A stretch of DNA of 64,000 bases from Zygnema cylindricum (taxonomy: Eukaryota; Streptophyta; Zygnematophyceae; Zygnematales; Zygnemataceae): assembly GCA_037447655.1 (NCBI GenBank), contig JBBHKE010003562.1, positions 207,458-271,457 on the forward strand, read 5' to 3'. The position numbers were made by a program, and so were the translations under genes. Of this stretch, positions 3,890 to 50,237 are shown one piece after another; position 1 is the first letter of the stretch, and every line of letters starts with the position of its first letter. The notes beneath the pieces are model-generated. The model was given only the letters and a program-made list of their open reading frames with translations. It had not been told where the DNA came from and searched no databases.

Positions 3890-3999
3890 AAGAAGAAGGC
3901 CCCGACTTTGCCTCAAAAGAGAGGGACGACGTAGGAAAGACTTCCGAAGAGGCCCCGGAAGTTGTGACAAAACTTCTCGAGGAGTACGTAGACGTATTT

Positions 4000-5345: not shown

Positions 5346-5562
5346 GGAGCAACGACCGCAAGCATCGCAGCATGTAAACTTGACCTCTGTGAAAGAGAAC
5401 ACCGTAGAGTCGACCGCAGCGCAAGATCCAAAACTCAGCGCAGTCACCAGTACTGTGCAAGTGGACAAACAGTGGTTAAGCAGAATATAGGCCGCCTACG
5501 GCGAGGACAACACACTGAATGAACTCATTAAACGGAAGGTACTAATTCAAACCACCAACGGT

Positions 5563-6985: not shown

Positions 6986-7351
6986 AGGAACGCAGCGGCA
7001 ATGTTACCGCGCCGCAGCGCTATAGCAGCGCAGCCACCGCATCGCAACATGGTTAAGATGCTGTTAGAGGATCGCAGCGCCACCGTTGCGCTGACACGGA
7101 AGCGCAACGGCGCAATTGTGTTTCACCACGTTGGTAACAACGAACCCTCGGTTTCGCCGCAGCTGAAACCGCTTTATAAATGTGTGATGCTGCGATACCC
7201 TTGCACGTTTCGACGCTTCATAAGTGAAACCCTCAACACTCGTTGATAAAGCCGCCATCCACCCTCGCGACCAACCTAGTCTCGGCAGCTTAGAAATTAC
7301 TTCCCTCTGCACACTCAGTTTGCCTTCACTTCTGGAATTACCAGAATTGTC

Positions 7352-8293
7352 TTGTACAACGGTGTCTATGGCCTCGTTGTCCTCGCCACCACCGAAAGAA
7401 AGAGACTTCTACGAGTGGGGCAAAATGATGTGACCCGTCCCCAGAGATTAATAATGGCGGCGGAGGCCATGGTAGAGGCATACCGGAGAAGAGAGGTAGA
7501 AGCGCAGCCGGAACCAGAAGAAACCGCCAGTAGCGAGGCAGGGCCGGCAGGGAGCAGTGGAGGGGAGGGGTCGGAAAGTTCACAGGACCCCGAATACACT
7601 CCAGCCCAGGAAGGGGATCAGGAATATAAAGAAGATCATGAGCTCTCGGAGGCGGAGGAACCAGAACGAGAACCAACTCCTCCGCCAATTGAGGAGCGCG
7701 CCTCGGATCTGGAGGTGATGAGGGACCCCAACAAGGAGAGTACCGTTGACGAGCAGTCCTCCGAAAGGGCGGAAAAGAAAGCGGAAGCACAACACCCTAG
7801 TGGAGACAAGGTGTATATCCTTCAGGGAAATCAAAGGGAGACGGCCGAGGAGAGTGGACAAGGAGAGGAAATTCCAGATTACCTCTTTCAACTTCTTGTT
7901 GACACACAACATCTAGATCTCACCTTCAGCTTCCCGAAACGCTTGATTTGGGATCCTTAGGAGGTGCCCGTGGAGTGGCGTACGGGAAAACCCAGGGATC
8001 CTATCTTTATTCCCGCTAGGGTACCGTCACACCCGGCCTGGAGTTTTATGAGAACAAAAGACCTCGGGAACAATCACAAGGGTTATGTGCAGTTAAACCC
8101 ACATACTCTTCCGTTTGTGGAAGTAGTGGAGGACAACTACCAGTGCAGGATAGATGTTCCTGGGTTACTCCGTCAGTATCACCCGTGGGATGTCCGCCTC
8201 CATGACATCAACTCGACGCCCTTCGCCGGGAGTTTGATGAGTATCGCGAGGAAATATACGATATTAGTCAGTCAAGGTTCAGCGGGACGCTGA
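7352..8293 (+). pseudogene. Unknown acidic reading frame between chromodomain and 3' LTR
   Basis: One reading frame of about 313 codons, with a likely ATG at 7454, is interrupted only by a TAG at 7958-7960. It ends 18 bp before the LTR. The first two thirds are low-complexity and very acidic (runs of E, P, S, Q). The last third is ordinary globular sequence with YVQLNPHTLPFVEV and LLRQYHPWDVRLHD. I recognise no domain, and there is no signal peptide or membrane segment. The position is that of an env or accessory gene in some Gypsy lineages. It could equally be displaced gag of another element. Confidence 0.45.
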
Positions 8294-10213: not shown

Positions 10214-10445
10214 TGTTGAGAAAGTAATCCTAAGTTAGTTCAGAAGATAGTGCATTAAAGGGAGAGAGCGCAGTGGCGCAATGGAGAAGCACAGTGCAGA
10301 AGTGCAAAGTGGTATAACTTTCTTGTTAAATGGTTAAATCGAGCACGCGACCAGAAAATCTTTATCTACAGAGAAAGAGATTTCGAACGAGCTATAGAGA
10401 GCAAGATTTGGATACGTAGATCAAAAGTTACAGGCGTGCAAAGCA

Positions 10446-10463
10446 GAAGCTTCTAGAAGGTTC
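10446..10463 (+). promoter_or_regulatory. Perfect four-unit heat-shock element in the Copia LTR
   Basis: The bases read GAAGCTTCTAGAAGGTTC, that is GAAnnTTCnnGAAnnTTC, the consensus bound by heat-shock factor trimers. It sits about 180 bp upstream of the TATA box, and the same 18 bases occur in the 3' LTR (15186-15203) and in copy 1 (2520-2537). A second run of spaced GAA units (AGAAATGTCTAGAATGTC) lies at about 10599-10620. Heat induction is an inference by analogy with heat-driven plant Copia elements such as ONSEN. Confidence 0.75.
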
Positions 10464-10639
10464 CACAGAAAACGGTATGGACTTTTCCGAGGTGGTTCCT
10501 AAGTGTTTCCTTGGAGTTTCGGGGACATGTCTAGTAGGTTCTTGTGACGTGGAGAGCCACGAGTTTCGGGGACATGTCTAGTAGTTTCTTGTGACGCTAG
10601 AAATGTCTAGAATGTCTAGAAGGGTAGAGTAGAAAAGAG

Positions 10640-10647
10640 TATATATG
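10640..10647 (+). promoter_or_regulatory. TATA box of Copia LTR promoter
   Basis: TATATATG in the LTR. Transcription would begin about 30 bp downstream. After that point no ATG occurs until 10936, so the leader of roughly 265 nt is AUG-free. Confidence 0.7.
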
Positions 10648-10935
10648 AAGTAGGAGAAGTAGACAAATCAATACAATTGGAGAATTGGTTGTGACCATAG
10701 TTGAAGAGATAGTAAGAGTCCCTATAGTGAGAAAGCATTGTAACTCTGTGTGAGTTGAGATACAAAGATAAGTGAAGCCTTGTAAAGAGAACTTGGAGAT
10801 AATAAAGTGATTCTTCTTGTGAGGAAAATTTGAGCAAGTGTGCTTTTACTTTGTGAGTGAATTCTTTGTGGCTTCGGAATATTCTTGAGTGACCTGTGAG
10901 AGAGTTTTTGCTTTGTGAAGCTAGATTGTTGCAAG

Positions 10936-13900
10936 ATGAGTGAGGCCCACAAAATTCAACATGGTATCAAAGCAAACGAAGCCATGAAGTTCTCCAAGTT
11001 TGCTGGAGCAAATTTCCACATATGGAAAGCGAAAATTAAGCAAGTGCTCAAGATGAAGAAACTATGGGGACACGTTGATGGAACCGACCCGGCACCGGCG
11101 GCACAAGACGAGCTTGTGGTGTGGCAAGGAAAGGAGGAAGAGGCCAAAGGTTACATTTTGTTGAGTCTTGACGACACTCAAGTATCCCACATTTTAGGAT
11201 GCGATTCGGCAAAGGGGATGTGGGACACCTTGCTCAAGGTGTATGAAGATAGTGGAACGGCAAATGTGTTGCAATTAAAGGAGAAACTTGCCACCTTTAA
11301 GATGAAGGAGACGGACTCGATTCAAACGCACGTGAATCGACTTAAGGAGCTTGCGGAGCAACTAACGGCGGTCGGAAAGAAACAAGACGAAGAAGACCTC
11401 GTGCTTACGTTATTGAGGAGCCTCCCAAGTGAATATAAAATGCTCGTGACGGCGTTAAAATCACAAGAGAAGTTAAAGTTGGAGTACGTCGTAAGTCGGC
11501 TACTACAAGAGGAGCTCGACCTCAAGCATGGAGAAAGTGAGGAGTCGGGAGATTCGGCGCTTTTCACAAAAGGACGCAAGAGCACTACTATGAGGAAGTG
11601 CTACAATTGCGGCAAAGCGGGTCACATGGCGAAGAATTGCCGACTATCGAAGAAGGCAAATGAGAGGCCGAAGGGAGGGAGCTCAACGGCATGCTACAAT
11701 TGCGGAAAGGAGGGTCATCGAGCGTATGAGTGCAAACACAAGAAAGGCAACGCGATGACCGTGGAACTTCAACAAGCAAATCTCGTGGAGAAGAAGGGAA
11801 GTTCAAGTGATTGGATTGTAGACTCGGGAGCAACGCATCATATGTGTAATGAAAAGTCGTTGTTTGTAACTCTCACTAAATTGGATACACCAAAAAGAAT
11901 TATTGTTGCTAATAATGAGTCTTTAGAGGTAAATATGGAGGGTGATGTGAGAGTAGATTTACCCACGGGTAGAGGTATAAACCGAGTCACTTTGAAAAAT
12001 GTGTTTTATACTCCGCAATTAAAGAAGAATTTATTTAGTGTGATCCATGCCGTGAAGTTTGGACATAGAGTTGTATTTAAAGAGAAGTATAAGTGTGAGA
12101 TTATTGAAGAGAGCACGGGTAGAGTAAAAGGTGAAGGAATAGCGGAAGGGAATTTATTTAAGTTAAGAGTAAGGATACCAAGAGTGAGAGGGGGATCATT
12201 TATTGCCGAGGGAAATTCAAGTGAGTTAAAGTCCTTTAGTTTATGGCATAAAAGGTTTGCGCATTTAGGAGAGGCCAACTTAAAGAAGTTAATTGAGAAG
12301 AAAATGGTGAAGGGGCTTGAAGGAGTTAGTGGAACTCTAACGGGGGTGTGTGACGGTTGTTTGGAGGGGAAACAACATAGAGAGCCGTTTAAACGCACGG
12401 AGGAGAGAAGAACTCGGGAGAAGCTTGAGCTTGTCCACACGGACATAAGTGGACCGCACCCGAGGAGTCTTGGAGGGAGTAAATATTTCATCACTTTCAC
12501 GGACGATTGTACGAGGAAAGTGTGGATTTACTTCATGAGGGAGAAACGGGAAGCTCTCGAGAAGTTTAAGGAGTTTAAGGCCGAAGCCGAGAAATATTCC
12601 GAAAAGAAGGTGAAGGCGCTACGATCCGACAACGGCGAAGAATACACCTCAGGAGCTTTTAAGTCGTTTTGTAACAAGGAGGGAATTCGGCAAGAATTTA
12701 CTACCCCTTATAGCCCGCAACAAAACGGAGTGGCCGAAAGATTAAACCGAACGTTGGTGGAGGGTGCACGAGCTATGGTCCACTCGGCGGACCTCGACAA
12801 GTCATTTTGGGCCGAGGCGATTTATTGCACCGTGCATGTTAAGAATCGGTCACCAAGCGCAAACTTAGAACACGTTACCCCCGAGGAGGCATGGAGTGGC
12901 TACAAGCCGAGTGTGCAACACTTGCAAGTGTTCGGATGCAAAGCGAGCGTATTTATTCCTTCACAAAAGCGAAAGAAGTTTGATAAGAAAAGTTGGACGG
13001 GAGTTTTCGTTGGATATGATGCGGCGAGAAAGGCGTATCGCGTTTGGGATACGAAAAAGCAAAAGGTCGTATCAAGCCGAGATGTTATTGTCCATGAAAA
13101 ACAAGAGGCTAAAGAGGAGTCATTTGAGGATATGGAAATTAAGGAGCATGAAGAGGAGGTGGAGGTGGAAGAAGAAGCAAGTCCTTCGAGTTCGACTAGC
13201 ACTCCACCCGAGACGGATGAGGCAAATTCAACTCCGGAAACAAGCCCGCAGGCACCGAGGAGATCCGGAAGAGTGAGAACAACACCAAAGAGATTAACCG
13301 CTACGAGACTTGGTGGTGTGAATGAGGAATTTGCCGGATTTGCATATTGTTTTCTTACGGAAGAGGAGGAGCCGCAGAGTTTTCAAGAGGCGATTACGTG
13401 TGCCGAAGCACAAAAATGGAGGGCGGCTATGGACGACGAAATGAGGAGTCTCTATGACAATGACACGTGGGAACTCGTCCCAAGACCGGAGGGGAAAAAT
13501 ATTGTCGGTTGCAAATGGGTCTACAAAATTAAGAGGAAGGCGGACGGGACCGTGGAGCGTTACAAAGCCCGTTTAGTCGCGAAGGGATATTCCCAAAAGG
13601 AGGGGATTGACTACAATGAAACTTTTGCACCGGTTGTGAAATTTTCAAGCTTAAGGAGTTTGGTCGCGATTGCCGCATTGGAGGGCATGAAGATGCATCA
13701 AATGGACGTGAAGACGGCGTTCCTCAATGGAGAGCTTGACGAGGAAATTTATATGGAGCAACCGGAAGGCATGGTGAAGAAGGGAGAGGAGGACCTTGTG
13801 TGCAAGTTAAAGAAGCCTCTCTATGGTCTTAAACAAGGACCACGGTGTTGGAATCACCGTATCGACGGTGAAATGAAAAAGGAAGGCTTTGAGAGATTTG

Positions 13901-14931
13901 AGACGGATAGAGCGGTGTATAAGCGTGGAGTAGGAAAATCTCTCACAATTGTGTCTATCTATGTGGATGATGTGAACATCTTTGGTTATCTCGATGATGA
14001 AATTTTGAAAGTTAAAAGGTTTCTCAAAAGTAAGTTTGAAATGAGTGATTTAGGAGAAACTAATTATTTGTTGGGAATTAAAGTGGATATTGATAAAGAG
14101 AAAGGCGAGGTGACCATGCACCAAGAGAAGTACGCGAGAGAAGTCCTCAAGCGATTTAATATGGAGAATTGCAAGCCGGTGAGCACACCAATGGACACGG
14201 GGCTGAAGCTCACGAAAAATATGTGTCCAACGAACGAGGACGAAAGGGAGCAAATGAAGGAAGTACCGTATCGAGAAGCGGTCGGGAGCTTGATGTATTT
14301 GATGGTAGCAACGAGACCGGATTTGGCTGCGGCGGTTGGGAGTGTTTCCCAATTCATGGAGAATCCGGGAATTATACATTGGCAAGCCGTGAAAAGAATT
14401 TTGCGTTACCTCAAAGGAACGGTGAATTTCGGTTTAAAATTCAAGAGAGGAGAATCCGTAGAATTCACCGGATATGTCGACTCAGATTGGGGAGGCGACG
14501 AAGACACACGGCGAAGCACGACCGGATATGTTTTTACATGCGGAGGCGCAGCAATAAGTTGGAGCTCCCGAAGACAAAGGACGGTTGCCCTATCGAGCAC
14601 GGAAGCCGAATATATGGCAGCAACACACGCTACGAAGGAAGCCATATGGTTAAGGGCGTTCTTTAAAGAGGCGGGATTCGAGCAAGGAACAACGGTGATA
14701 TACTCGGATAATCAAGGAAGTATTGCTCTCATGAAAAATCCCGTTTATCATGCTCGCACAAAGCATATTGACATTCAATTTCATTTTGTTAGAGAATATG
14801 TTGAAAGTAAAGAGATAAAATTTGAGTATGTGCATACGAGCATGCAAGCGGCGGATAGTTTGACAAAGGCAATCTCAAGAGAGAAAGTAAATTTGTGTAA
14901 TGAGTTATTTGGACTTGTAAGTCATCATTGA
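10936..14931 (+). CDS. Copia Gag-Pol polyprotein, intact (1331 aa)
   Basis: One open frame encodes all retrotransposition functions in Copia order. Gag (about residues 15-215) is followed by two CCHC zinc knuckles (from C222 and C253). Then come the aspartic protease (WIVDSGAT, D296), the GAG-pre-integrase HHCC region (H438 onward, CDGC) and the integrase triad D503, D565, E601. Reverse transcriptase has YVDDVNIF (D1011/D1012), and RNase H has DSDWGGDED (D1182) and ALSSTEAEYMA. All catalytic residues seen are intact. The ATG at 10936 is chosen because it is the first AUG after the TATA box. It lies within the LTR and the frame runs through the primer site. A GTG-led extension to 10915 is not credible. 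Confidence 0.95.
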   Translation: MSEAHKIQHGIKANEAMKFSKFAGANFHIWKAKIKQVLKMKKLWGHVDGTDPAPAAQDELVVWQGKEEEAKGYILLSLDDTQVSHILGCDSAKGMWDTLLKVYEDSGTANVLQLKEKLATFKMKETDSIQTHVNRLKELAEQLTAVGKKQDEEDLVLTLLRSLPSEYKMLVTALKSQEKLKLEYVVSRLLQEELDLKHGESEESGDSALFTKGRKSTTMRKCYNCGKAGHMAKNCRLSKKANERPKGGSSTACYNCGKEGHRAYECKHKKGNAMTVELQQANLVEKKGSSSDWIVDSGATHHMCNEKSLFVTLTKLDTPKRIIVANNESLEVNMEGDVRVDLPTGRGINRVTLKNVFYTPQLKKNLFSVIHAVKFGHRVVFKEKYKCEIIEESTGRVKGEGIAEGNLFKLRVRIPRVRGGSFIAEGNSSELKSFSLWHKRFAHLGEANLKKLIEKKMVKGLEGVSGTLTGVCDGCLEGKQHREPFKRTEERRTREKLELVHTDISGPHPRSLGGSKYFITFTDDCTRKVWIYFMREKREALEKFKEFKAEAEKYSEKKVKALRSDNGEEYTSGAFKSFCNKEGIRQEFTTPYSPQQNGVAERLNRTLVEGARAMVHSADLDKSFWAEAIYCTVHVKNRSPSANLEHVTPEEAWSGYKPSVQHLQVFGCKASVFIPSQKRKKFDKKSWTGVFVGYDAARKAYRVWDTKKQKVVSSRDVIVHEKQEAKEESFEDMEIKEHEEEVEVEEEASPSSSTSTPPETDEANSTPETSPQAPRRSGRVRTTPKRLTATRLGGVNEEFAGFAYCFLTEEEEPQSFQEAITCAEAQKWRAAMDDEMRSLYDNDTWELVPRPEGKNIVGCKWVYKIKRKADGTVERYKARLVAKGYSQKEGIDYNETFAPVVKFSSLRSLVAIAALEGMKMHQMDVKTAFLNGELDEEIYMEQPEGMVKKGEEDLVCKLKKPLYGLKQGPRCWNHRIDGEMKKEGFERFETDRAVYKRGVGKSLTIVSIYVDDVNIFGYLDDEILKVKRFLKSKFEMSDLGETNYLLGIKVDIDKEKGEVTMHQEKYAREVLKRFNMENCKPVSTPMDTGLKLTKNMCPTNEDEREQMKEVPYREAVGSLMYLMVATRPDLAAAVGSVSQFMENPGIIHWQAVKRILRYLKGTVNFGLKFKRGESVEFTGYVDSDWGGDEDTRRSTTGYVFTCGGAAISWSSRRQRTVALSSTEAEYMAATHATKEAIWLRAFFKEAGFEQGTTVIYSDNQGSIALMKNPVYHARTKHIDIQFHFVREYVESKEIKFEYVHTSMQAADSLTKAISREKVNLCNELFGLVSHH
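10962..10973 (+). promoter_or_regulatory. Primer-binding site, tRNA-Met type
   Basis: TGGTATCAAAGC follows the 5' LTR directly and matches the usual plant Copia primer site TGGTATCAGAGC, complementary to the 3' end of initiator tRNA-Met, with one mismatch. It is also coding: codons of Gag-Pol span it. Confidence 0.85.
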
Positions 14932-14944
14932 ACTAACTAATGAT

Positions 14945-14954
14945 TAAGAGGGGG
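14945..14954 (+). promoter_or_regulatory. Polypurine tract of Copia copy 2
   Basis: TAAGAGGGGG lies immediately before the 3' LTR. Such tracts prime plus-strand DNA synthesis. The same tract precedes the LTR of copy 1 at about 2278-2287. Confidence 0.85.
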
Positions 14955-15693
14955 TGTTGAGAAAGTAATCCTAAGTTAGTTCAGAAGATAGTGCATTAAA
15001 GGGAGAGAGCGCAGTGGCGCAATGGAGAAGCACAGTGCAGAAGTGCAAAGTGGAATAACTTTCTTGTTAAATGGTTAAATCGAGCACGCGACCAGACGAT
15101 CTTTATCTACAGAGAAAGAGCTTTCGAACGAGCTATAGAGAGCAAGATTTGGATACGTAATCAAAAGTTACAGGCGTGCAAAGCAGAAGCTTCTAGAAGG
15201 TTCCACAGAAAACGGTATGGACTTTTCCGAGGTGGTTCCTAAGTGTTTCCTTGGAGTTTCGGGGACATGTCTAGTAGGTTCTTGTGACGTGGAGAGCCAC
15301 GAGAAGGACACTTGTCAATAAGTTAGAGCTAGAAATGTCTAGAATGTCTAGAAGGGTAGAGTAGAAAAGAGTATATATGAAGTAGGAGAAGTAGACAAAT
15401 CAATACAATTGGAGAATTGGTTGTGACCATAGTTGAAGAGATAGTAAGAGTCCCTATAGTGAGAAAGCATTGTAACTCTGTGTGAGTTGAGATACAAAGA
15501 TAAGTGAAGCCTTGTAAAGAGAACTTGGAGATAATAAAGTGATTCTTCTTGTGAGGAAAATTTGAGCAAGTGTGCTTTTACTTTGTGAGTGAATTCTTTG
15601 TGGCTTCGGAAGATTCTTGAGTGACCTGTGAGAGAGTTTTTGCTTTGTGAAGCTAGATTGTTGCAAGATGAGTGAGGCCCACAAAATTCAACA
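14955..15693 (+). repeat. 3' LTR of Copia copy 2
   Basis: A 739-bp LTR, TGTTGA to TTCAACA, followed by the target duplication ATTCC. It lacks the rearranged patch of the 5' LTR and in that region agrees with copy 1, so the patch is private to the 5' LTR. Confidence 0.95.
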
Positions 15694-17020
15694 ATTCCTG
15701 CAGAATAAAAATCCATCGGGCGTGTTTGTCGGTTAACTTTCTATTTTCCATAATCCAATTCAAGAGTTGGTGATCCGTAATCAAGGTGAAATTGACTCCG
15801 TAAAAATAAGGCTGGAAATGCTGGATGGCCCAAACCGCAGCGAGTAATTCTCCGTAATAACTGCTATAATTCCCCTTTGCCATGTTGTTGCTTCGGCTGC
15901 CATAGGCCACCACATATTCAGCTCCGGCATCATCGACTTGAGCCAAAACCGCTCACAATCCAAACCTGCTCTAATCAGTATAAAGGAGGAAAGGTCTTTG
16001 GTGATCAGGCATCCGGAGAACGAGGTGGTGCTTCAGAGCATCCTTCAAGAACTAGAAGGAGCGCTGTTGTTTTTCTGCCCACCGCCACTCTTGGTCTTTC
16101 CGCAATAGTTGATTAAAGGGTTGGGCGTGACTACTGAACTCGGGGATAAACCGCCGATAGCAATTGGCCAGACCCAGAACTGTGCAAAGTGGCGAGATGT
16201 CCTGTGGTGGGGGAAGAGCGTCAAGGGCAGCCACCTTGACCATGTGGGGACCCAGAGTTCGGGAGTCACCTCATGTCCGAGGTTAATGATTTTATGTACC
16301 CCAAAAATGCCTTTGCCCGGGTGACATTTCAAGCCCGCTGATTGGAGTGCCCGTAGAAGGATCTGGATATGCTCTAGGTGTTCTCTAAAGTTTTGGAGAA
16401 TATAATAACATCATCAATATAGCACCGGGCACAATCGATTCCTCATAGCCCTTCGTCCATTGCCCGTTGGAATTTGGCCGGTGCATTCTTAAGCCCGAAT
16501 GGGCATGTAAATCCATTCATAAAGTATGGAACTAGCCCAAAATGCAGTTCTCTCCCTGTGCTTTGGTTCCATGGCAATCTGGTGAAAACCATTCTTCATG
16601 TCCAAAGTGGAATACATAGTGGCGCCAGTAAGAGAGTCGAATATCTCTTCCGGAGTTGACATCAGATACCGGTCAGAGATGGTGGACGTGTTCAGCCTGC
16701 GATAATCTCCGCACATCCGAAAATCTACAGTCTTCCCGGACGAGTCCTTCTTCGGAGGGAGAATTGTCGCGGAAGTGAACCTATGAAGTCTAATACTTTA
16801 TTGAACCATTCCGGCTCCCACCAAAGTCTAGATTTAAGCCATGATGAATTCATTTTCCTTGAAACTAAGAGGATACTGCTTCTGTCATACACTAGCCGTC
16901 TCATCGATCAAATTGATTCGGAAAGGGGTTCCTTTGTAAATACCGACATCTGTTTATGACCATGAGAACACCTGCTTGTTTTCGACCAATAGCTCGGAGA
17001 GCTGCGCCATCTGTTGAGGA
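15694..17020 (-). pseudogene. Reverse transcriptase and RNase H of the DNMT-bearing Gypsy
   Basis: On the minus strand, reverse transcriptase runs from about 17000 down. N-terminal motifs (VFSWS, GTPFRI) with stops are followed by TSATILPPKKD, DFRMCGDYRRLN and STLDMKNGFHQIAM. The polymerase box YIDD is intact at about 16410-16420. The connection region (KGIFGVHKI, LGHEVT) changes frame. RNase H starts AYGSRSNN and runs through YGELLAAVWAI and TDHQLLNWIM to the Copia insertion at 15694. Key catalytic residues survive but frameshifts and stops break the protein. Confidence 0.87.
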
Positions 17021-17447
17021 TCCAACTACTCCCCTTGTGTCCAATCCATTTTCCCAGGCTCTACAGCAACCCAAGCTTCCGGCGGTCTAGCCCAGAGGAT
17101 AATGTCGAATCCCAATCCTAGTGGTGGATTTGCCTCTACTCCTTCGGCTAGGACGCTACTACTGACAACTTCCGCTAACCTGTCGCCATCTAAGCCGCTG
17201 CCCCCCCCCACTGGGTAAACCTGCGGTGGTTAAATGTGAATTTTTCTTCTCCTTTCTCTCCCCCCTTCAAGCTGCAAAACTTCTTCTATCGCTAACAAGT
17301 GAGGAGCCTGAAGGTAAACAACCCTTGATTCCGAGGACTTGATACTAAAAAAGGTGAGTGCAAGCTTGAGGACCTATGTGATCGAATTCAAATCCATACT
17401 CTGCCCAATTAGGTTGTACCTCTGAAGGTCTAAAATACCTGGTGCTA
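17021..17447 (-). pseudogene. Methyltransferase C-terminus and linker to reverse transcriptase
   Basis: On the minus strand from 17447 down, the frame reads LDLQRYNLIGQSMDLN (17406-17386 for GQSMDLN). This is the segment that ends C5-methyltransferases of the DNMT3 type. A TAG follows at 17374-17376. It then runs through about 110 residues of linker (SSESRVVYLQAPHLLAIEEVL) with frame damage toward the reverse transcriptase. It is the continuation of the DNMT split off by the solo LTR at 17448-18658. Confidence 0.75.
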
Positions 17448-18658
17448 TGTTGATATTTGAGTATTTTCTAGGTCTGTATTAGGATAGAAAAAGAGCTGAG
17501 GCGGTCTGCCTCTAACTCCCCTATCCAAGCCCCCACACTTGTTGTAGTCACTGAAGGCTGGATAAGGAGCAAGAGCCATGGCAGCCTAGGCTCTCTAGAG
17601 AAGACAGGGGGTGAAATATGTAGACTTACCAAAAGTTAGTTGACGGACCCAGGAATTGATCTTGGTACCTGCCTTCCGTCAATCCGCATTAGCCGTTAGC
17701 TTTAGCCGTTAAGTCTAGGACAGATATTAAGATATGTAGGGTTTGACAAATATATAAATCATCATATATAGATTAATCCGTTTAACGGCTAATAGATACT
17801 TAGTACATAGATACAGTTTGATTTAGTACGAAGTACGGTATGTGGACAGAACGGATACCGCGCATTTGTTTCGCTATCAAAACAAATACCGCGCATTTGT
17901 TTCGATAGCGAAACAAACACCGCGCGTCCAATTTCAGCGGCAGGGATTATAGCCGGTTTTGATCAGACGACCACGATAGGCGCCGCGATCACGGAAAAGG
18001 TATTTTTGGCGTTTTACGGTCTTTGCCACGTCAGATGACACGTGGCGTGATAACATTGGACTACGAGAATTCCGGAGATTACAGGAACTAATCCTGATTT
18101 GACACGTGTCAACATTTTGGCCATGTCGTACAATGGCCGTATATAAAGTACACAGGAAACTGTACTTTTCTTTACTACACAGTAATTTGATTTGTGCCAA
18201 ACTTCAGTAGATAGAGTTTTAGAGAGGGAATAGGACTTAGAAAATTTTGGGTAGGCAGCTGCCTCTCCTAGAGAGCACTCTGTATAAATGGCAAACTTTG
18301 GCTAGCCATAACTATCAATTTACTTGACCATTTTTAGTGATTCTTTTTGCTGCACACTCAGGGGAGTCCACGCTACAGAGGGGTGTAGTCGGTCAGAGTT
18401 TTTGTCTGCCAGGGTGGCTGCATTTATAAGGGAAAGTCAAAGTGGGTGAATGTGTCCAAATCTCAAATTCTAACTTTGCATTCTGTGGTGGAACTGAGCA
18501 CACAGAAAGTGTTATTTCATAGGGGTGAATCTATATTGGGATTGTGACTGTCAAGGGGTCAGTCATTTGGGTTTATATTAACTTGGAGTCGGCACTATCT
18601 AGATTAGCTTCTTTTGGATCTGCATACTCTGAGGGCCAATGAAGGTCTCAGAGTTTCA
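17448..18658 (+). repeat. Solo LTR inside the methyltransferase gene
   Basis: A 1211-bp LTR beginning TGTTGATATT and ending GAGTTTCA, belonging to the family whose complete element is at 26708-31001. It interrupts the DNMT frame between the GTTTT at about 18660 and the continuation at 17447. Flanks TGCTA and TGTTG agree at three of five bases, with two transitions, as a decayed target duplication would. No internal retrotransposon sequence is attached, so it is the product of LTR-LTR recombination. Confidence 0.8.
18039..18148 (+). promoter_or_regulatory. LTR promoter: two G-boxes and a TATA box
   Basis: In the transcribed orientation of the LTR, CACGTG occurs at 18039-18044 and 18103-18108, and TATATAAAG at 18140-18148. 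G-boxes are the ACGT-core sites of plant bZIP and bHLH factors. Related LTRs in the window keep the G-box, but the TATA box is mutated in the copies at 23992 and 26708. Confidence 0.6.
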
Positions 18659-19681
18659 TGTTGTCGTGGTGCCTTTATGAAATCTCATCACTTCTTCCAG
18701 TTCTACAATTGTCACTGTTGTCCAGATTCCCACCATACTGTCAAAAATCATTCTCGTTGCTCCTTCCCGATAAGCATGACTATGAGGGAAAGAAACCAAA
18801 GTCGGGAGTGCTCCCGTGGGTACCCCGGTTTGTTGCACGGAAAGAAAGGAGAGCGGTCAGGTCGCGTCACAGGGGTGGCCATTCTGCCTTCCCCAAGTAT
18901 TTGGTGCACCGAATTCTGTGGGTCGGGAATTTGCTTGTCCAACTGTCGCAGGAGTACTACAAACGGGATCATATTGGTCTTATATGCCCTTACTCTGTGT
19001 GCATGGGATCCCATTTGTGCGGAGTCAAAAACCAAGGGAGCTCTTAAAGTCCGGGTTACGTGATTCCAGCTGTCTGCAACCTGTTTCCTTTTATCTTCTC
19101 CCAGGTTGATATTTTCCATAACGTACCCCACCGGTGTGTTTTGGAGTTGTTGAAGCCACGTGATTAATTCGATCATCCGGTTAAATGTCCACTTATGCGA
19201 TCTTGATGCCCTTTTCCTTGTCCCGCTAGGAAGTATTCCTGACAAGGCCAGCCTGCCAACACCAAATCCACTCTTCCCAAACTGGCTAGATGTTGCGCCA
19301 TGACGTTTTCTACATTTTGGGAAAGACTTCGGTGAGTTTTGGAAAAAGCTGTCACTAGAAGTTGTTGAGGATATAGGTGATGAAGTTGATGGAGGCAGTG
19401 TTCGCTGACAGCCCGCGCCTCGGGTGATATTTCCACGACTGCGTATGACTCCACTAGATATCTTGTTTTCAAAACCGCTTCCACATCGGAACTAATTCCT
19501 GAAATAGACATAAGATACGCAGTCCGGAACCAAGAACTGCCAAGGACACCACTTGTCGATTGAACTCCTTGTTACCGGACTTGGGTTTGGAAGCAATTGT
19601 CAATGGTGTAGAAACGGCTTCTTTCAATGTTAAGGCTGAACATGCCTTTTCCACTCCCCGCCGGAGTTTTGCTACCTGCAA
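18640..19681 (-). pseudogene. C5-DNA cytosine methyltransferase domain within a Gypsy element
   Basis: On the minus strand the conserved motifs of C5-cytosine methyltransferases appear in canonical order over three frames. They are a degenerate motif I (VVSLAVLGSG, about 19555-19523), motif II (VVEISPEAR, 19439-19413), motif IV with the catalytic cysteine (LAGWPCQ, PCQ at 19247-19239), motif VI (YVMENI, ENI 19116-19108) and motif VIII (HAHRVRAY, 19005-18982). Then come FPCNKPG, LPTLVSF (about 18805) and ELEEVMRFHKGTT at 18700-18660. The enzyme would methylate cytosine in DNA. The order I-IV-VI-VIII-IX is that of DNMT3, not the rearranged order of DRM. Upstream it is fused in frame to the protease region. 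At least three frameshifts and an LTR insertion inactivate it. Confidence 0.88.
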
Positions 19682-21158
19682 TAATCTATTCTTATATTCC
19701 TCTTCCCACAGCTTAGAAATTGGGAATTGCTAGATTTCTTTGGCGATATCTGTAGAATTGCCAAACAGTTCCGTCGGAGATGATGTAATGTACACTGGGT
19801 AACAACCAGACAGTGGAACATTTGTCTTCCCCCGGTTCCATAAGTCCAAAGGAACCACCACTTTGGTTCCTTCCGGATTTTTGGAGTCCCGAACGGTACA
19901 TTATTCCTTCCACACTCTCAAACTCATATTGAGCCGGGTCCAAGTGGCCATTCCCAACAGAATTTCGAATTGGGTCCCTTCCACCACCAACAAAGGAAGC
20001 TCAATTTTCACCCATTGGCCTCCGTCATGAGAAAACTAGATTTCGATGGCCTTGATTAATCCATGAATGGGTTGATTGCCGCTATATACGGTGCGTAAGC
20101 AAATATTGCTTCGGCAGATTTTGGGACGTTGTTCCTCGCGCATTTTTTGCAAAGCGGAGGTGGTGATGAGGTTGAGGAGCGCCCCGGTGTCGACCACAAC
20201 GTCCTGGTATCCCCCATACCCGTTGAGCTTGAAGTTCCCAATTCGGTTCTGTATAAGGGCCACTGATAAGGCCTTGTAGTCCCTATCCACTATAGGTGTT
20301 TTCGGATCGGTGGACAAAAATACTGCGGTTGGCGGAGTGGTCATGTTGACCACTCCCTTTCCCGAGTGGATCTCCTTTCCCAATGCCTGAATGAGGATTT
20401 CATTGGGCACGTTGTGGGAGGATGCTAAAGTCTTCACGTGAGTGAGGGCATATAGCATGAGGTGCCGGACTAGAATGAGAGCCGGTTTGGAGGAAGGAAG
20501 TGTTGCTTTCGGTGAATATATGGATGAGTTTGGTTCTTGCAGATCTCGATCCTGTATTTCTTTCTCACTCTCGGAGCCGGAATTTGGGATAGGAGGTGTT
20601 TGGGGAGTGTCATTCTCCGGTCATTCAACCATATAATTCTCAAGCCAGTCAAGATTGTCCTTTTTCTCTCGTTCTAGTGACTCTTTCTCTTGTTGCTGTT
20701 TCTCATACTGGTAATTTTCGAAACCAGGAGGCAATTTAGGTTTGGGAGGAAAAGATGGTGGGTGATTGGGTTTGATTCCTAAGCCGATGTCGCTGTTCAG
20801 CAATACTACCCTGAGAGTAAATGACAAAGGCCCTGTAGCTTTCCGGTTGTGATCCCTCTCACTCATTTTTTGCCTGTCCTGTCTTTGCATCGAGGTGGAA
20901 TGGCGGAGTTGGTGGCGGTTGTCTCCCACCCCAACATTCCAAGTTCCGGACATGAATGTTTGGGCATGGTGGGCATTTGGGGGTTCCAAATCACAGCCCA
21001 ATAAGTCATCATCATTGGCAACCGCCGTGCCTTGAAGCTCAAGCTCCGCGAGCTTCTGTAACAACTCTTGTTACTGCTTTTGGAGTCATTGTGCTGTTGT
21101 GAGAGGAGCAGGCCGGGAAGAAGATGCTAAACGGAGGGCAGCCAACTCTGCAGCCATT
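19682..21158 (-). pseudogene. Gag-like region and retropepsin of the DNMT-bearing Gypsy
   Basis: From 21158 down the minus strand encodes a gag-like region (AAELAALRLASSSRP, a proline-lysine stretch at PPSFPPKPKLPPGFENY, then glutamine- and glutamate-rich sequence) with stops near 21065 and 20620. No zinc knuckle is visible. Next is a retropepsin with VVVDTGALLNLI (active site DTG, about 20190-20170) and, after a frame stop, FEILLGMATW near 19970. About 80 residues of linker then run into the methyltransferase. The N-terminus of gag is cut off by the LTR at 21159. Confidence 0.78.
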
Positions 21159-22170
21159 TGAAATTCTATGGGCTCCATTGCCCACAGAATTCGCAGATCC
21201 AAAAGAAGCTAATCTAGATAGTGCCGACTCCAAGTTGATATAAACCCAAATAAATGATCCCTTGACAATAAGAACCCCAATATACCTTCACCCCTGTGAA
21301 AAGAAGACCTTTTGTGTGCTCAGTTCCACCACAAAATGCAAAGCTTCAATATGTGTTTTGGACAATATTCCCCACTTTGACTTTCCCACTGAATAAGTGC
21401 CACCCTGGCACGCAAAGACTCTGACCGACTACACCCTTGTGTAGCTTGGACTCCCCTGAGTCCGCAGCAAAAAGAATCACTGAATTTGCTCACCCGAGCA
21501 TTCAGTTATGGCTGGTCAAAGATGACCTTTATAGTTACAAGCTCTCTTAGAGAGAGAGGTACCTAAATATTACTAAGTCTCGGTCTGCCTACTCACGACT
21601 ACCTACTATTAAACCCTAGTCCAATAGGAACACTATATAGTACAAGAAGGTACAATGGGCGATGTACTTATTGTACGTCCATTGTACGACAAGGTCTACA
21701 AGGTGACACCTGTCAAATCGGAAGCCATGGTTCCTCCTCCCATCTTCTCCGGTCTCAAATAAAGTGGCGCCACGTGGCACCGCGTGACGCTATCTCCGTA
21801 TGCCGCCAAAAGCTCACTTCGCGTGGCGGCTATAATGTCGGCCGTCTGATCAAAACATATTTTACACGGTTCAGATTCGCGTACATGCAGGAATTGCTCC
21901 TTTTGGTTAGTCTGCTGTTAATTAGCTGTTGCGTTAATGTTTATATATTTTTTCGTAAACCCTTAATGGTTAAGGCGTTAGGCTATAGAGATTTTAGAGG
22001 TCGCAGGTTCAAATCTAGACTTAGGCATCATTTTAGTAAAATACCCTTTACTTCAAAAACTGCCACTTTCTAAATATGGCGGCAGCCATGGCGCGCCTTT
22101 GATCCTCACTCTCTTTCTTTAAAACAAAACTAAAATAGGGAAGTGAACTATTAATTACCTCTTTTCAACA
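21159..22170 (-). repeat. LTR of the half-tRNA Copia family, opposite orientation
   Basis: Starts TGAAATTCTATGGGCTCC like the LTRs at 26708 and 29748, and shares with them the GATCC-to-GTGCC block, the SCCACGTG region and the tRNA-like block. The outer end, CTTTTCAACA at about 22170, is a tentative match to the family end TTTCAACA. No target duplication is visible. It points opposite to the solo LTR at 17448-18658, so the two form a long imperfect inverted repeat around the gag-protease-DNMT segment. Confidence 0.6.
21963..22030 (+). repeat. tRNA-like segment with A-box and B-box within the LTR
   Basis: TGGTTAAGGCG (21967-21977) resembles a Pol III A-box/D-arm, and GGTTCAAATCT (22006-22016) resembles a B-box/T-arm. 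The spacing is close to that in a tRNA. I see no proper acceptor or anticodon stem, so it is not called a tRNA gene. Equivalent blocks lie in all LTRs of the family, antisense to the retroelement. Confidence 0.5.
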
Positions 22171-23663: not shown

Positions 23664-25288
23664 TAATGGTGTGTATCGAGAAAAAGCTTATCGCGATAAT
23701 ATTGATATCGTTACTTATCAGTTATCGAATGGTGATGGGTCCTGATATATCGCTATGGAACCAACAAACTCTTTATTGCCGAGAATTGCAAAAAAAATAT
23801 ACTATGTTATATAATAATACTTTATAATTTATTGTATTATATTTTATATGTTATATTGTATGGCATGCCACATATGACATCGTTCCTTACTTATCTATAA
23901 AACAATTCAAATGTACGATTTAACCGTATTATTATAATCGATAATTATCAACCCATATTTACAGTATATAGTCGGTTTTTATTGTGAAAATTGAAACTCT
24001 GAGACCTCCATTGGCCCTCAAAGTATGCAGATCCAAAAGAAGCTAATCTAGATAGTGCCGACTCTAAGTTGATATAAACCCAAGTGACTAACCCCTTAAC
24101 AATCAGAATCCCAATATAGATTCACCACTGTGAAATAACACTTTTTGTGTGCTCAGTTCCACCACAAAATGCAAAGTTAGAATATGAGATTTGGACACAT
24201 TCACCCACTTTGAATTTCCCTTAGAAATGCAGCCACCCTGGCAGACAAAAACTCTGACCGACTACACCCATGTGTTGCCTAGACTCCCCTGAGTCCGCAG
24301 CAAAAAGAATCACTGAAAATGGTCAAGTAAATTGATAGTTATGGCTGGCCAAAGTTTGCCATTTATACAAGGTGCTCTTTGGGAGAGGCAGCTACCTACC
24401 CAAAATTTTCTAAGTCCTATTCCCTCTCTAAAACTCTATCTACTGAAGTACGGCACCAATCAAATTAGTGTGTCGTACAGAAAAGTACAGGTGCCGGTGT
24501 ACTTTCTGTACGGCCATTGTACGACATGGCCAAAATGTCGACACGTGTCAAATCAGGATTAGTTCCTGTAATCTCCGGAATTCCCGTAGTCCAATCATTG
24601 TCGCGCCACGTGTCACATGACGTGGCAATGACTGAAAAACGCCAAAAGTACATAATCCGTGATCGCGGCGCCTATCGTGGCCTTCCGATCAAACCGGATA
24701 CAATTGTAGCCGTTGAAAATATACGTGCGATATTTGTTTCGTGTTCGAAACAAATGCGCGGTATCAGTTTTATAAAATACATTAAATCGTACTCCGTACT
24801 ATACAAAATTGTATCTATGCATTACGTATCTATTTCCGTTAGACGAACTAGTCTACGTGTACAAATATAAATATCTGTCAAACCTATTGTACTCTAGCAC
24901 TATGTTTAGACTTGTTGGTTAAAGCGAACAACTAGTTTGACAGACGGCAGGTACCAGGATCAAATCCTGGGTCCGTCACACCTTTTAGATAACTCTATTA
25001 AGAATTGTTTTCCTGTCCACTTTGGACAGCCTAGGCAGCCATGGATCTAACTCCTTTTCAAGTCTTCAGTGACTGCAACAAGTGTGGGGACTTGAGTGAA
25101 GAGTTAGAGGTAGGTTGTCAGTGTCCCCTTTTTGCCTTTTTATTTTACAATCTCTAGACCTAGAAAATAATTAAGTTTCAACAAAAACAAGTACAGATAT
25201 ATCGAATCGAGCGAATGTAAAGATTAACGGGAAGCTAACACAAAGGGTATATCAATTATCAAGAAATGGTTACCGATGCACAACACTA
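23664..25288. mobile_element. Short hAT-derived element interrupted by a solo LTR
   Basis: The left end TAATGGTGTGTATCG and the right end CCGATGCACAACACTA are versions of the terminal inverted repeat of the hAT at 32251-42638. The subterminal sequence (AAGCTTATCGCGATAA) matches that hAT as well. Without the solo LTR it would be only about 430 bp, the size of a MITE. No 8-bp target duplication is preserved. Confidence 0.6.
23992..25183 (-). repeat. Solo LTR in the short hAT derivative
   Basis: An 1192-bp LTR, TGAAACTCT to TTTCAACA, most like the copy at 17448-18658 (both use the GGCCCTC variant at the inner end). Flanks AAAAT and AAAAC agree in four of five bases, a near-intact target duplication. 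It contains the tRNA-like block with a 17-base T-arm-like hairpin at 24954-24970. Confidence 0.8.
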
Positions 25289-26702: not shown

Positions 26703-26707
26703 GTTAC

Positions 26708-27984
26708 TGAAATCCTATGGGCTCTATTCCCTTATAAAAATCGCAGATCCAAAGAAGCTTATCTAGATAGTGCTGACTCTAAGTTAATACAAACCCAAAT
26801 GACTGACACCCTGACCGTCAAAACCCCAATACAACTTCACCCTTGTGAAAGAAGACTTTCTGTGTGGTCAGTTCCACCACAGAATGCAAAACGTGAACAT
26901 GTGTTTTAGACAATATTCCCCACTTTGACTTTCTCTTAGAAATATCGCCACCCTGGCAGACAAAAACTCTGGCTGACAACACCCTTGTGTAGTTTGGATT
27001 CCCCTGAGTCGGCAGCAAAAAGAATCACTGAAATTGCTCACCCGACCATTAAGTTATGACTGACCAAAGTCGGCCAATAAATACAGATGCACTCTGGGAG
27101 AGAGGCGACTACCTAATTTTTCTAAGTCCTAAATTACCTCTTTGAGCCTACTACTAGTGTACCCTAACCAATCAAAATATTGTAAGGTATAAGAAGGTAC
27201 AGGTACCGCTGTACTTATTGTACGATTATAGTTCAACATGACCGCTCCGCTGACGCGTGGTAGTTCTTGAGCCGTAGTTGCTCCCCGCGTAATACCCGCT
27301 ATCCAATAATGGCGTGCCACGTGTCATCCACCAACATTGCCTTATAAACCGCCAAATGACCACGGCGGTGCGTCGGCTCCACCATGAGCCGTCAGATCTT
27401 AAACCGCATTTAATCGCGTATATTAAATTCAACGTCGTTTCGTTTCGTAATCCACGAAACGGAGTATGTTGATTAGTACCAGCTTTATATATGTTTCAAA
27501 CTTGATATATGTATTTCTTCATTGAGACCTACGCGATAAGCTTTACCGTTACGTCGTACGGTCTATATCCTGAAGGAACTAGAATCAAATCCTATTGGAG
27601 TCGAACGTATCTATTGTTTAAATACTTCGTTCTCTTTCTCTCTCCTTGCATGGTATTTGTTTATATTAAAGTTAAACCTTATATTATATCATAGTATCTA
27701 CATGTATAGGATAGTACTACCGTCTACACCAGCAGACTACAGATCTTGGTTCAATTCCGCAGCTGTCCATTTATATTTTGGCAGAGTATCCTTTAACCCT
27801 CGCGCTTGTCTCCTTGACTATCTGTGGGTAGACATGTAGTTTCTTCTATCTCTCAGTGACTACGATAAGTATATAGAGAAAGAAGTATTTCGAAGCACCA
27901 GGTAGAAACTTTAAAACCTTTTAATACTATCTTTTATTAAACACATAGAAAAATACAGACCTAGAAAATACTTAAATTTCAACA
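26708..27984 (-). repeat. 3' LTR of the deleted Copia
   Basis: In element orientation it runs TGTTGAAATT to GGATTTCA. It contains a G-box (GCCACGTGTC at about 27317) and the tRNA-like block near 27530-27600. Confidence 0.88.
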
Positions 27985-27996
27985 CTCCCCTTAGTT
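27985..27996 (-). promoter_or_regulatory. Polypurine tract of the deleted Copia
   Basis: On the minus strand AACTAAGGGGAG directly precedes the TGTTGAAATT start of the 3' LTR, as expected of the plus-strand primer. Confidence 0.75.
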
Positions 27997-27997
27997 T

Positions 27998-28501
27998 CTA
28001 GTCACCCTTGTATTTAAAATAGTTTATTGGATGCGCATAAACAAATATAACATCTTGTTGATCACATATCTTATTTTGCATGCCAAAAATCCGAGCCTTT
28101 TGGAGAAAGGATTTTGTCCACCTCAACCCTTTTTCATCCGAGCAAAATTCAAATTTCCTCTTGCAATTCCAACCGCAAGCCTCATCCCCAATTTGAAACA
28201 CATACCCAGATGATAACCATTTTACAGGCACATTTTCATAAGTGACATCACACCAAGTAGTGATGTTAAATCCACCCTCCCCCAAATATATCCAAAAACC
28301 ACTAGTCCCTCCTAAAGTTCTCATAAATTTTACATCTTCCTTCCTCATATTTTTATCCTTGATAATTACCCTATGGAACTTCCTCACTTCTCCCCGACGA
28401 CACTTTATGATTCGATATTTTCTCCCAGAACCTTTATTAATTTCCTTATCGTTTGGAGCCCACTCTGATTCTTTCCATGAATCCTTTGTTCTTTCGACCA
28501 A
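27998..28501 (-). pseudogene. Copia RNase H remnant
   Basis: A 167-codon minus-strand frame with a damaged but recognisable Copia RNase H region: LGGTSGFWIYLGEGGFN, WCDVTYENVP, then SSGYVFQIGDEACGWNCKR, and NKICDQQ near the end. These correspond to the usual RYLKGT, CDADYAGD, STSGYVF, WNSKRQ and CDNQ blocks. Many conserved residues are replaced and the polymerase region is missing, so it is non-functional. Confidence 0.72.
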
Positions 28502-28699
28502 ACCTTAAATATCTGAAAATATCCTTTATTTTAATTTCACCTATTTAATGATCCTACATTTGACTCTTTTCTAAGTCATGCACTCTACACCTTGACATCC
28601 TCGGCCTCCTTCTCGAATCGTTATTAATTTCCTTTGTCGAAATTATGGAAACACTCTTCCCCCTTTACGGATCGGAAAGCTTTTCTTCATCTTGTTTCT

Positions 28700-29700
28700 C
28701 CTCTTCTCCCTCTTCCTCTGCATTCACATTCGAACTTCTTATTTCTTCCAAACAAAGACATTCCGCTATATAGTGACACGGTTCCCTACAAAAGAAGCAA
28801 ACCCTTCCTTTCAAGCTTCTCTTTCTTTTCCTCTTCCTCTCTTTCCACCAAAGTTCCGATAAGGCTTATCTCTACGTTTTTTCCTCTAATCACGCTTCTG
28901 CTAGTCACCGTGATTCCTCTTATCACGCTTCCGCAAATCACCACCAGCTGTTAGTGCATTCACCTGTCACTTCCCCTCCGAAGCTCCAAAGTTCTTTTCC
29001 TCACAAAAATTATCCCCATGGTAATGCTCCAAGTCCATGAGGAGCCATCCATTCTCTGCATACAGTAAATGATGTCTTCGTACTCATCTTGGAGCTTCAT
29101 GATTAGTGTATTATTATTTCTCTCCTTAGATTCTACATATCTTGCACTACTAAGCTCAACATATAACGCAACAATATCATTGCAAAAATCTATCACGCTA
29201 CCGCCTTTATAAACATAGTCCTCTACTTCCTGTTTTACTAACTGCTGCCTTTGTATAGTCTCACTCTTATAAATCTGACTTAGTGTTTCCCAAATTTATC
29301 AAGACTTGGTTAGATTTAAGAGAATGATAGCTATGGACTTAGACACGTATCTAAATATGAGATGTTTTGCTATAGGGTTTTTGTAGTTCAGATTTTTCTG
29401 TCATTTTTTTCAGCTTTTGGTTTAGTTATAACCCCTACAAGTGGAACTTTAGGCAAGAGCCTAGCTCCCCTCACCAAAGATATTCCATAACCCTTCTCAC
29501 ATTTTTCCATCTCCATGGCAATGATTTTCTGTTCACCTTGTGTTGCATCCAAACTCCGGTTGCCTTTCTGGGAAGCCCCAGATGAATCTTCATAGTGAGT
29601 CCCACCAACGCCGGTGGCGGACACTTCACTTGTGCTGAAAGAATTCCCTTTAAGTGCTTTTCGAAAAGCAATCCCTCCATAGTTAATTCCCATTAAGTGA
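28700..29700 (-). pseudogene. Copia gag remnant with zinc knuckle
   Basis: The minus strand starts MGINYGGIAF at 29693. It carries NDIVALYVEL and LIMKLQDEYEDII (28960-29196) and a CCHC zinc knuckle CFFCREPCHYIAEC at about 28763-28804. Gag builds the particle and the knuckle packages RNA. Stops and frameshifts interrupt it. The NDI through LRRGS segment is clearly related to the gag at 59860-60350. Confidence 0.7.
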
Positions 29701-29734
29701 AGTTTGTTCTATCAAAAACAGACACCCTATATGG

Positions 29735-29747
29735 TGGGCCCATAACC
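29735..29747 (-). promoter_or_regulatory. Primer-binding site matching the anticodon arm of initiator tRNA-Met
   Basis: On the minus strand GGTTATGGGCCCA follows the 5' LTR. It is the complement of the anticodon stem-loop of eukaryotic initiator tRNA-Met (TGGGCCCATAACC). This is the half-tRNA priming arrangement known for Drosophila copia, as opposed to the 3'-end priming of the Copia at 10214. Confidence 0.8.
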
Positions 29748-31001
29748 TGAAATTCTATGGGCTCCATTCCCCCACAAAAACTGCAGATCGAAAGAACCTT
29801 ATCTAGATAGTATTGAATCCAAGTTGATACAAACCCAAATGACTGACACCTGAATGGTCAAAACCTCTATACAACTTTACCCTTGTAAAAGAATACTTTC
29901 TGTGTGGGTAGTTCCACCACATAATGCAAAACGTGAACATGTGTTTTGGACAATATTCCCCACTTTGATGTTCCCTTAGAAATACCCCCACCCTGGCAGG
30001 CAAAAACTTTGACCGAAAGCACTCTTGTGTAGCGTGGACTCTCTAAAGTCCGCAGAAAAAAGAATCATCGAAATTGCTCACCCGATCATTAAGTTATGAC
30101 TGACCAAAGTTGGCCAATCAATACAGATGCACTCTAAGAGAGAGGCGACTACCTAATTTGTCTAAGTCCTAAACTACCTCTCTGAGTCTACTACTAGGGT
30201 ACCTTAGCAAATCAAAAGACTGTAAGGTATAAGAAGGTACAGGTACCGATGTAGTTTTTGTACAACCATAGTATGGCGTGACCGCTCAGCTTACGCGTGT
30301 TAGTTATTGAGCAATAGTTTCTCCCGCCGTAATACCCGCTGTCCAATAATGGCGTGCCATGTGTCATCCATCAACCTTTGCTCACAAACTGCCAAATGTC
30401 CACGTCGGTGCGTCGGCTCCACCGTGTGCCGTCGGATCTGAAACTGCATTTAATCGCTCCCGTTAAATTCAACGTCGTTTCGTTTCGTAACCCACGAAAC
30501 GGATTATGTAGATTAGTACCAGCTTTACATATGTTTAAAACTTGATATATGTATTGTTTCATTGAGACCTTCGCGATAAGCTTTACCGCTACGCCGTACG
30601 GCCTATATGCTGAAGGGATTAGGATCAAATCCTATTGAAGTTAAACATGTTTATTGTTAATTACTTTTTTTTGTTTCTTTCTCCTTGCATGGTATTTGTT
30701 TATACAAAAGTTTAACCTATCCCCTTATGACATATATGATAGTACTACCTTCTACACCAGCGGACCATAGATCTTGGTTCAATTCTGTAGTAGTCTATTT
30801 TTATTTTGGCAGACTATCTTGCTTGTCTCCCTGACTATCTACAGGTAGTCATGTAGTTTAATCTATCTCTCAGTGGGTACGACAAGTATATAGAGAAAGA
30901 AATATTTCGAATGTCCAGGTAGAAACTTTAAAACCTTTTAATATTATCACTTATTAAACACATAGAAAAATACAGACCTAGAAAATACTTTAATTTCAAC
31001 A
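29748..31001 (-). repeat. 5' LTR of the deleted Copia
   Basis: In element orientation it runs TGTTGAAATTAAAG to CATAGAATTTCA and is directly followed by the primer site. It is clearly alike to but visibly diverged from the 3' LTR, so the insertion is not recent. Confidence 0.88.
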
Positions 31002-31006
31002 GTTAC

Positions 31007-32250: not shown

Positions 32251-32777
32251 TAGTGTTGTGTATTAGTAAAAAACTTATCGCGATAACACCGATACCGATA
32301 GTTATCGGTTATTGAACAGTCAAAGGTCCGATATATCGGCCTGGGACCAACAAATTCCATATCGGCGATAACTTTTTGAAAATATAGTATTCATACAATA
32401 GTACTATATAACACACTGTATTACATTATTTTCATTATATAGCGTAGAATTCCACGTATAAGAATCTGTTCCGCGTATCTATTTAACTGAATTTTTTTAC
32501 GGATAGCGCTGCACATAAACGTAGACAAATATAAATTAATACCTTATTGTTATAAAACTATACTATCGAAACGAAAAAAACAAAATACATAGTAATATTT
32601 CTGAATCAAACTTTTTCCAAAAAAAGACGAACAGACTGAAAGAAGCAGACGAACACACCTGTCAGACTGTCGCCATTTCCAGACGCCATATTTTGAAAAT
32701 TCTGGCAGCAGGAATTTTGAAAATACTAGATTTTTATAAAATACTAAAAAAGCTAAAATTTTATATTTATTCATTCT

Positions 32778-48880: not shown

Positions 48881-49369
48881 TTCACAATGAACCTAACAAA
48901 ATAGTGATAGAGACGGTAGGTATTGCAAAACTTGCGATAGAAGAATCATCAAGGTACGAACGGGGTAAGAATGACAAAAAACTTTTAGTACGTTATTTAA
49001 TATGAACTTTTCGCACTGTCTTTTAAGTACAGTCCGACGTGTAAATTGTAGCACGAAATTACAGTAGAGTAACCCAGGCCGGACTGCCGTACGCAGCACA
49101 AAAGTACGGTATTCCAAAAGGATTTCAGGAGTCAATCCGAAGGACCGTTTTTCGGATGAGACAAGCGGATATTCCTCAGATTTGTTCAAAGTGGCCACGT
49201 CACTTCGGACGGGGGGATGCAAAAAAACCGCCAAAAAATCTTTGCCGGAGTGTATCCTGTTCGTCGTTTGCCTCCCCTTTTTGTCTTTTATTAGGTTGTT
49301 TGAAATCTTCATTGGTACAGCTAGACTGTCCGTTTGTACAGACGTGACATTCAAACCGTACGGATAAAA

Positions 49370-50106: not shown

Positions 50107-50237
50107 AACAGTTTCCATCTTCAACATCAAACCAGGCTGCCCCTCTTCCTTCCACTTCCGCTCTCGCTCGCTCTCCCGTTATCAACTCGTTTTCTCCTTC
50201 CCCTATTCTCTCTATTTCCTTTCTCTCTCGCTCTCAG

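Follow-up and report, generated by a model that had tools for sequence, protein, structure and literature searches.

Retroelements bearing the type of enzyme that silences them have been described from few lineages, as far as the available portions of the literature extend. The locus examined here raises the question of whether such an element lies fossilised in a 64,000-nucleotide stretch of Zygnema cylindricum DNA (contig JBBHKE010003562.1, positions 207,458 to 271,457; hereafter the window, numbered from its first base). Judged from its sequence, the minus strand very probably carries one old, dead copy of a Ty3/Gypsy-type long terminal repeat (LTR) retrotransposon, whose pol polyprotein included a C5-cytosine DNA methyltransferase (DNMT) between the protease and the reverse transcriptase (RT). 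The original prediction was of a Gypsy retrotransposon encoding a DNMT, and this stands as the best reading of the locus, given the frames that the DNMT shares with protease and RT and an in-frame empty site within it.

Translation of positions 21330-15900 of the minus strand in three frames, with a solo LTR left aside, recovered every one of the predicted C5-methyltransferase motifs in canonical order between a DTG protease and a YIDD RT. The first bases lie at 20191 (DTG), 19439 (VVEISPEA, motif II), 19253 (GWPCQ, IV), 19122 (VMENIN, VI), 19002 (AHRVRAY, VIII), 18808 (LPTLVSF), 18694 (EVMRFHKG), 17412 (LIGQSMD) and 16421 (YIDDV). As far as GTTTT the DNMT is divided into four frame pieces by three frameshifts, and its catalytic cysteine (PCQ), ENI and RxR are still legible in alignment. 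The unpermuted motif order sets the domain apart from DRM (rearranged DNMT3), in which that order is permuted. The element runs LTR, protease, DNMT, RT, RNase H, integrase, and its parts, which include open reading frames (ORFs) named by their coordinates, are as follows:

21158..22000, minus strand: 5' LTR, inner end at about 21158 (...AATTTCA) and outer limit of 22000 approximate; four further LTR copies of the window align with it
20624..21157, minus strand: short 5' internal region between the 5' LTR and the protease ORF
19900..20250, minus strand: retropepsin-like protease, DVVVDTGALLNLIT ... FEILLGMATWTR, with two in-frame stops; recognised by eye from the translation
19499..19555, minus strand: DNMT N-terminus with the first half of motif I (LRILCLF), in the frame of the protease; aligns with C5-methyltransferase motif I
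19179..19496, minus strand: remainder of DNMT motif I with motifs II and IV (GWPCQ), in the next frame, within ORF 19176-19571
18823..19185, minus strand: DNMT motifs VI (ENI) and VIII (HRVR), in the third frame, placed by alignment; ORF 18751-19491
18659..18823, minus strand: DNMT piece LPTLVSF...EVMRFHKGTTTT, in the first frame again
17448..18658, plus strand: solo LTR, TG...CA, 1211 bp, an inverted insertion inside the DNMT with flanks TGCTA and TGTTG
17377..17442, minus strand: DNMT C-terminus, PGILDLQRYNLIGQSMDLNSIT, followed by a stop; in frame with the 18659 side once the solo LTR is removed
16400..17376, minus strand: linker and RT, with FRMCGDY at 16722 and YIDDV at 16421, one frame further on
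15694..16000, minus strand: first part of RNase H, by eye
10214..15693, plus strand: Copia element splitting the Gypsy RNase H, with a perfect 5-bp duplication (ATTCC) on each side, LTRs 97% alike and one ORF of 1343 amino acids
8839..10213, minus strand: remainder of RNase H, integrase zinc finger and integrase core (PF17921, E 1.8e-15; PF00665, E 7.7e-10)

The profile search on which the identity of the domain had been expected to turn came out in favour of a C5-methyltransferase without any joining of frames. ORF 19176-19571 (132 amino acids, motifs I-IV) matched the NCBIfam model dcm at E 2.6e-5, without reaching the cut-off that the model sets for whole proteins; it also matched four families of PHROGs labelled 'DNA methyltransferase', at E 1.7e-4 to 4.6e-3. 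The same ORF reversed gave no match at E<=1 in NCBIfam or PHROGs, and because the unjoined ORF matches methyltransferases in both libraries when its reversal does not, the resemblance exceeds chance. A frame-blind scan, in which a hidden Markov model (HMM) of ten C5-methyltransferases was run against the 1614 stop-to-stop segments of the window of at least 25 amino acids each, placed ORF 19176-19571 first (E 2.9e-7), 18751-19491 second (0.11) and 17377-17478, which contains LIGQSMDLN, seventh (6.8), values flattered by the choice of eight of the ten members through their matches to the joined DNMT sequence. These three segments are collinear in the HMM, and the best E among 1604 segments of the reversed window was 3.6. 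In scans with single sequences ORF 19176-19571 again came first, with DNMT3A (0.088) and with M.HhaI (0.014), neither being significant alone; the reversed control reached 0.026 with HhaI.

Joined into 304 amino acids, the DNMT matched dcm at E 9.7e-6, the whole-protein cut-off not being reached, and a PHROG family at 4.1e-6. At E<=1 it found 14 sequences in the PDB, comprising 11 of DNMT3A/3C, two bacterial C5-methyltransferases and one unrelated protein (best E 0.061). The single ORFs found less there: two weak C5-methyltransferase matches for 19176-19571 (0.73 and 0.84) and one unrelated match for 18751-19491 (0.036). By tblastn at E<=1 the joined sequence matched 78 phage records, the best 25 of which are headed by one at 7e-4; 16 of these 25 are annotated under the match, 14 as methylases and two as 'hypothetical protein'. 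Plasmids yielded 36 matching records, and the top of the best 15 stood at 0.2. Among IMG/VR sequences, the pattern-matched stretches for the joined DNMT, the integrase and the RT piece (8, 1 and 6 respectively) included none that tblastn confirmed. As in a C5-cytosine DNA methyltransferase, a profile match is combined with motifs IV, VI and VIII in order, neither PF00145 nor dcm being matched above its whole-protein cut-off.

Most likely the DNMT was one of the domains of the Gypsy pol, because removal of the solo LTR joins the reading frame into LIGQSMDLN and that same frame runs on into the RT. The solo LTR, which the original prediction had not included, supplies 1211 of the 1246 bases separating GTTTT from LIGQSMDLN. 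When one copy of its flank is kept, the empty site would read VELEEVMRFHKGTTTT-PGILDLQRYN-LIGQSMDLNSIT with a stop immediately after, the parts of the DNMT being in frame. On the other side, the protease and the start of the DNMT occupy one frame of 374 codons with 3 stops, and downstream the DNMT C-terminus and first part of the RT occupy one frame of 307 codons with 8 stops (17412-16492). The domain thus lies within the Pol reading frame, as in the KnitGypsy-Dnmt3 element of Klebsormidium nitens. The distance from protease to RT is 3469 nt, or about 2253 without the solo LTR, against 788 in an ordinary Gypsy element of the window (3287-6832, plus strand), in which tblastn detected no DNMT.

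The remainder of the element is that of Ty3/Gypsy, having the order protease, RT, RNase H, integrase with an rve integrase after RNase H, where protease and RNase H were recognised by eye and RT and integrase by Pfam. PF00078 matches the RT at E 6.4e-7 on 16492-16797, and there is an extra frame change within the RT, upstream of YIDDV. Rejoined across the Copia element, the RNase H is Ty3/Gypsy-like and in a single frame, interrupted by a stop close to its end and by another further on. That this copy is a fossil, as had been supposed, is borne out by three frameshifts within the DNMT alone, by stops, by the two insertions and by the failure to find a 3' LTR. Both insertions came later in the life of the element: the solo LTR, or an LTR element of which only the solo LTR is left, went into the DNMT, and the Copia element into the RNase H.

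Several observations sit uneasily with this reading. PF00145 stays below its curated Pfam cut-off (0.028 unjoined, 0.0026 joined), and the piece with motifs VI-VIII, ORF 18751-19491, is matched on its own neither in NCBIfam and PHROGs (at E<=1) nor in Pfam. In the 5' internal region neither gag nor zinc knuckle was recognised, ORF 20624-21070 having no Pfam family at E<=1, and the protease ORF 20039-20620 had none at that threshold either. A 3' LTR was not found by blastn within the window, leaving a single LTR end at 21158; the flanks of the solo LTR are identical at only three of five bases; and the element is seen as one copy, with no intact relative seen. To these are added the CpG results given below.

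A chance resemblance, produced by choosing frames by eye, is made conceivable by the assembly of the joined sequence from four frame pieces and by the weakness of several single tests. We nevertheless regard it as exceedingly improbable, given that the unjoined ORF is significant in two independent libraries when its reversal is not, that segments ranked 1, 2 and 7 among 1614 are collinear and that the empty site is in frame. Alternatively, a retrocopy of a host DNMT, or a fragment of such a gene, might have dropped by accident into an ordinary Gypsy copy, of a family that never encoded a DNMT. The observation of a single DNMT-bearing copy would agree with this, as would the ordinary Gypsy of the same window without a DNMT, but the frames shared on both sides of the domain, the motifs unbroken by introns and the existence of a published family carrying a DNMT in Pol (PMC5890265, in the part of the paper available) make it very unlikely; poly-A or duplications bordering the DNMT were not systematically searched for.

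Less can be said for the further proposal that the element methylated its own DNA copies. Self-methylation is suggested for the living element because the catalytic motifs are kept: its pol would have been cleaved by its own protease, the methyltransferase being left in the particle beside the RT, where it could have acted on fresh double-stranded cDNA ahead of integration. That it did so we hold to be possible rather than probable, reasoning as we do from conserved residues. A footprint of CpG decay specific to the DNMT-bearing Gypsy was not found in comparisons of LTR pairs and of CpG observed/expected ratios (o/e). In two full-length LTR pairs, transitions at CpG and at other C/G positions stood at 0.133 vs 0.21 and 0.181 vs 0.187. 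Three short Gypsy-LTR comparisons, of only 20-28 CpG sites each, were higher at CpG in two cases (0.35 vs 0.236 at 20 sites; 0.286 vs 0.231 at 28) and lower in one (0.20 vs 0.249 at 25), and the unrelated pairs tested had the higher rate at CpG in five of five. The CpG depletion of the element (0.67-0.74, vs 0.97 for the window) is exceeded by that of unrelated sequence at 59-61.5 kb (0.44). The latter interval, 59000-61500, has the strongest depletion of the window, measured in 2.5-kb windows, and overlaps a decayed Copia-like element. In addition, the available part of the work of de Mendoza et al. (2018, PMC5890265) reports that the K. nitens Gypsy enzyme produced no methylation in yeast, a result its authors called inconclusive since human DNMT3B failed too, and that SymbioDIRS DNMT domains methylate CG there. 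Self-methylation gained no support from the CpG comparisons.

The same anatomy could have served another use, the domain having been kept for nucleic-acid binding, cDNA protection or restraint of copy number and not for marking or hiding cDNA by methylation. To this alternative we would give nearly an even chance. The options discussed in the accessible text of de Mendoza et al. (PMC5890265) are escape from recognition, shielding of cDNA and slower transposition, and both the inactivity of the K. nitens enzyme in yeast and the missing CpG footprint are in its favour; against it stand the still legible PCQ, ENI and RxR and the purifying selection reported on the K. nitens domain in the same source.

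The DNMT-bearing Gypsy lies among other repeats. The solo LTR within the DNMT belongs to a related LTR family; it is 84.7% identical to the 5' LTR of the element over 314 bp and 90% identical to an LTR at 23992-24774 over 785 bp. Its inverted orientation invited interpretation as part of a DIRS-like or terminal-inverted-repeat element, which was rejected on the grounds that it starts with TG, ends with CA, has relatives in the window and on removal restores the DNMT frame. Related LTRs occur at about 23992-25183 (solo) and at 26707 and 29747, the latter two being the pair of a single 4.3-kb element (26707-31005, minus strand) with LTRs 85% alike, a GTAAC duplication and one ORF of 168 amino acids (28001-28504) without a Pfam family. 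Adjoining the 5' LTR of that element is GGTTATGGGCCCACC, which would pair with the anticodon arm of initiator tRNA-Met, a half-tRNA primer site being possible; presumably the Copia primer site TGGTATCAAAGC and a GGTTATGGGCCCA site next to the 29747 LTR also resemble plant initiator tRNA-Met, which would hint at a host among the green plants. ARAGORN found no tRNA genes in the window, and no Rfam family reached its gathering score. Past the 3' end of the integrase, on the opposite strand, two plus-strand ORFs of 226 and 110 amino acids (7280-8293) have no Pfam family at E<=0.1. Pieces of a hAT transposase (zf-BED, Dimer_Tnp_hAT) lie at 32757-34839, and pieces of a unit of about 6 kb, in two to three tandem repeats 75-87% alike, at 46074-59668. 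This unit encodes a secreted-looking protein, MANSLASALLLV..., in ORFs 50022-50702 and 55468-56268, the former without a Pfam family at E<=0.1.

A Gypsy bearing a DNMT is a kind of element already known since 2018 from K. nitens. The citation of de Mendoza et al. (2018) in the original prediction was correct, the part of PMC5890265 available describing elements from Klebsormidium (Gypsy) and Symbiodinium (LINE and DIRS); PMC12344493, in its available part, gives the same finding as 'LTR Copia and DIRS'. Dam- or Dcm-encoding Ty3/Gypsy and DIRS elements are recorded in many lineages, and not in land plants, by the accessible portion of PMC6338049, and our literature search, within the text available, found no named DNMT-bearing Gypsy besides that of K. 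nitens. We consider it unlikely that the host belongs to the land plants or to another lineage reportedly without methylase-bearing transposons (PMC6338049, in part), and that the PCQ-type domain goes back to a capture separate from those in K. nitens and dinoflagellates; were this true, a retroelement would have acquired a C5-methyltransferase on yet another occasion. A nested fossil in which the order of protease, DNMT and RT is legible would help to show the spread and age of the arrangement, and may point to intact relatives in which element-driven methylation of cDNA is testable.

The closest counterpart is KnitGypsy-Dnmt3, which has its DNMT in the Pol ORF with Ka/Ks<0.2 (de Mendoza et al. 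2018, PMC5890265, as far as available), and which the present element resembles by description. In both, the Pol of a Gypsy LTR element contains an intronless, unpermuted C5-DNMT whose key residues are kept. The K. nitens repeats are DIRS-like according to the legend of Fig. 4, whereas here there is a single LTR end and the inverted copy is a nested insertion; the order of the DNMT relative to the protease is readable here. SymbioDIRS-Dnmt3 and SymbioLINE-Dnmt of Symbiodinium, as the same partial source describes them, are likewise retroelements bearing a DNMT, within Pol in the DIRS form, but possess a DIRS tyrosine recombinase or a LINE ORF1 in place of the rve integrase and aspartic-protease-like stretch of the present element. 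The domain itself shares the motif order I-II-IV-VI-VIII-C-terminus with eukaryotic DNMT3 and with phage and bacterial C5-methyltransferases. Bit scores with the DNMT region were 17.0-23.1 for eight phage and plasmid enzymes, themselves picked by similarity, 14.1 for DNMT3A and 10.6 for HhaI. Its motif VIII, AHRxR, is like that of DNMT3A, and its Y.TN is like that of Bacteroides and Flavobacterium phage enzymes, while it has PCQ where DNMT3A has PCN.

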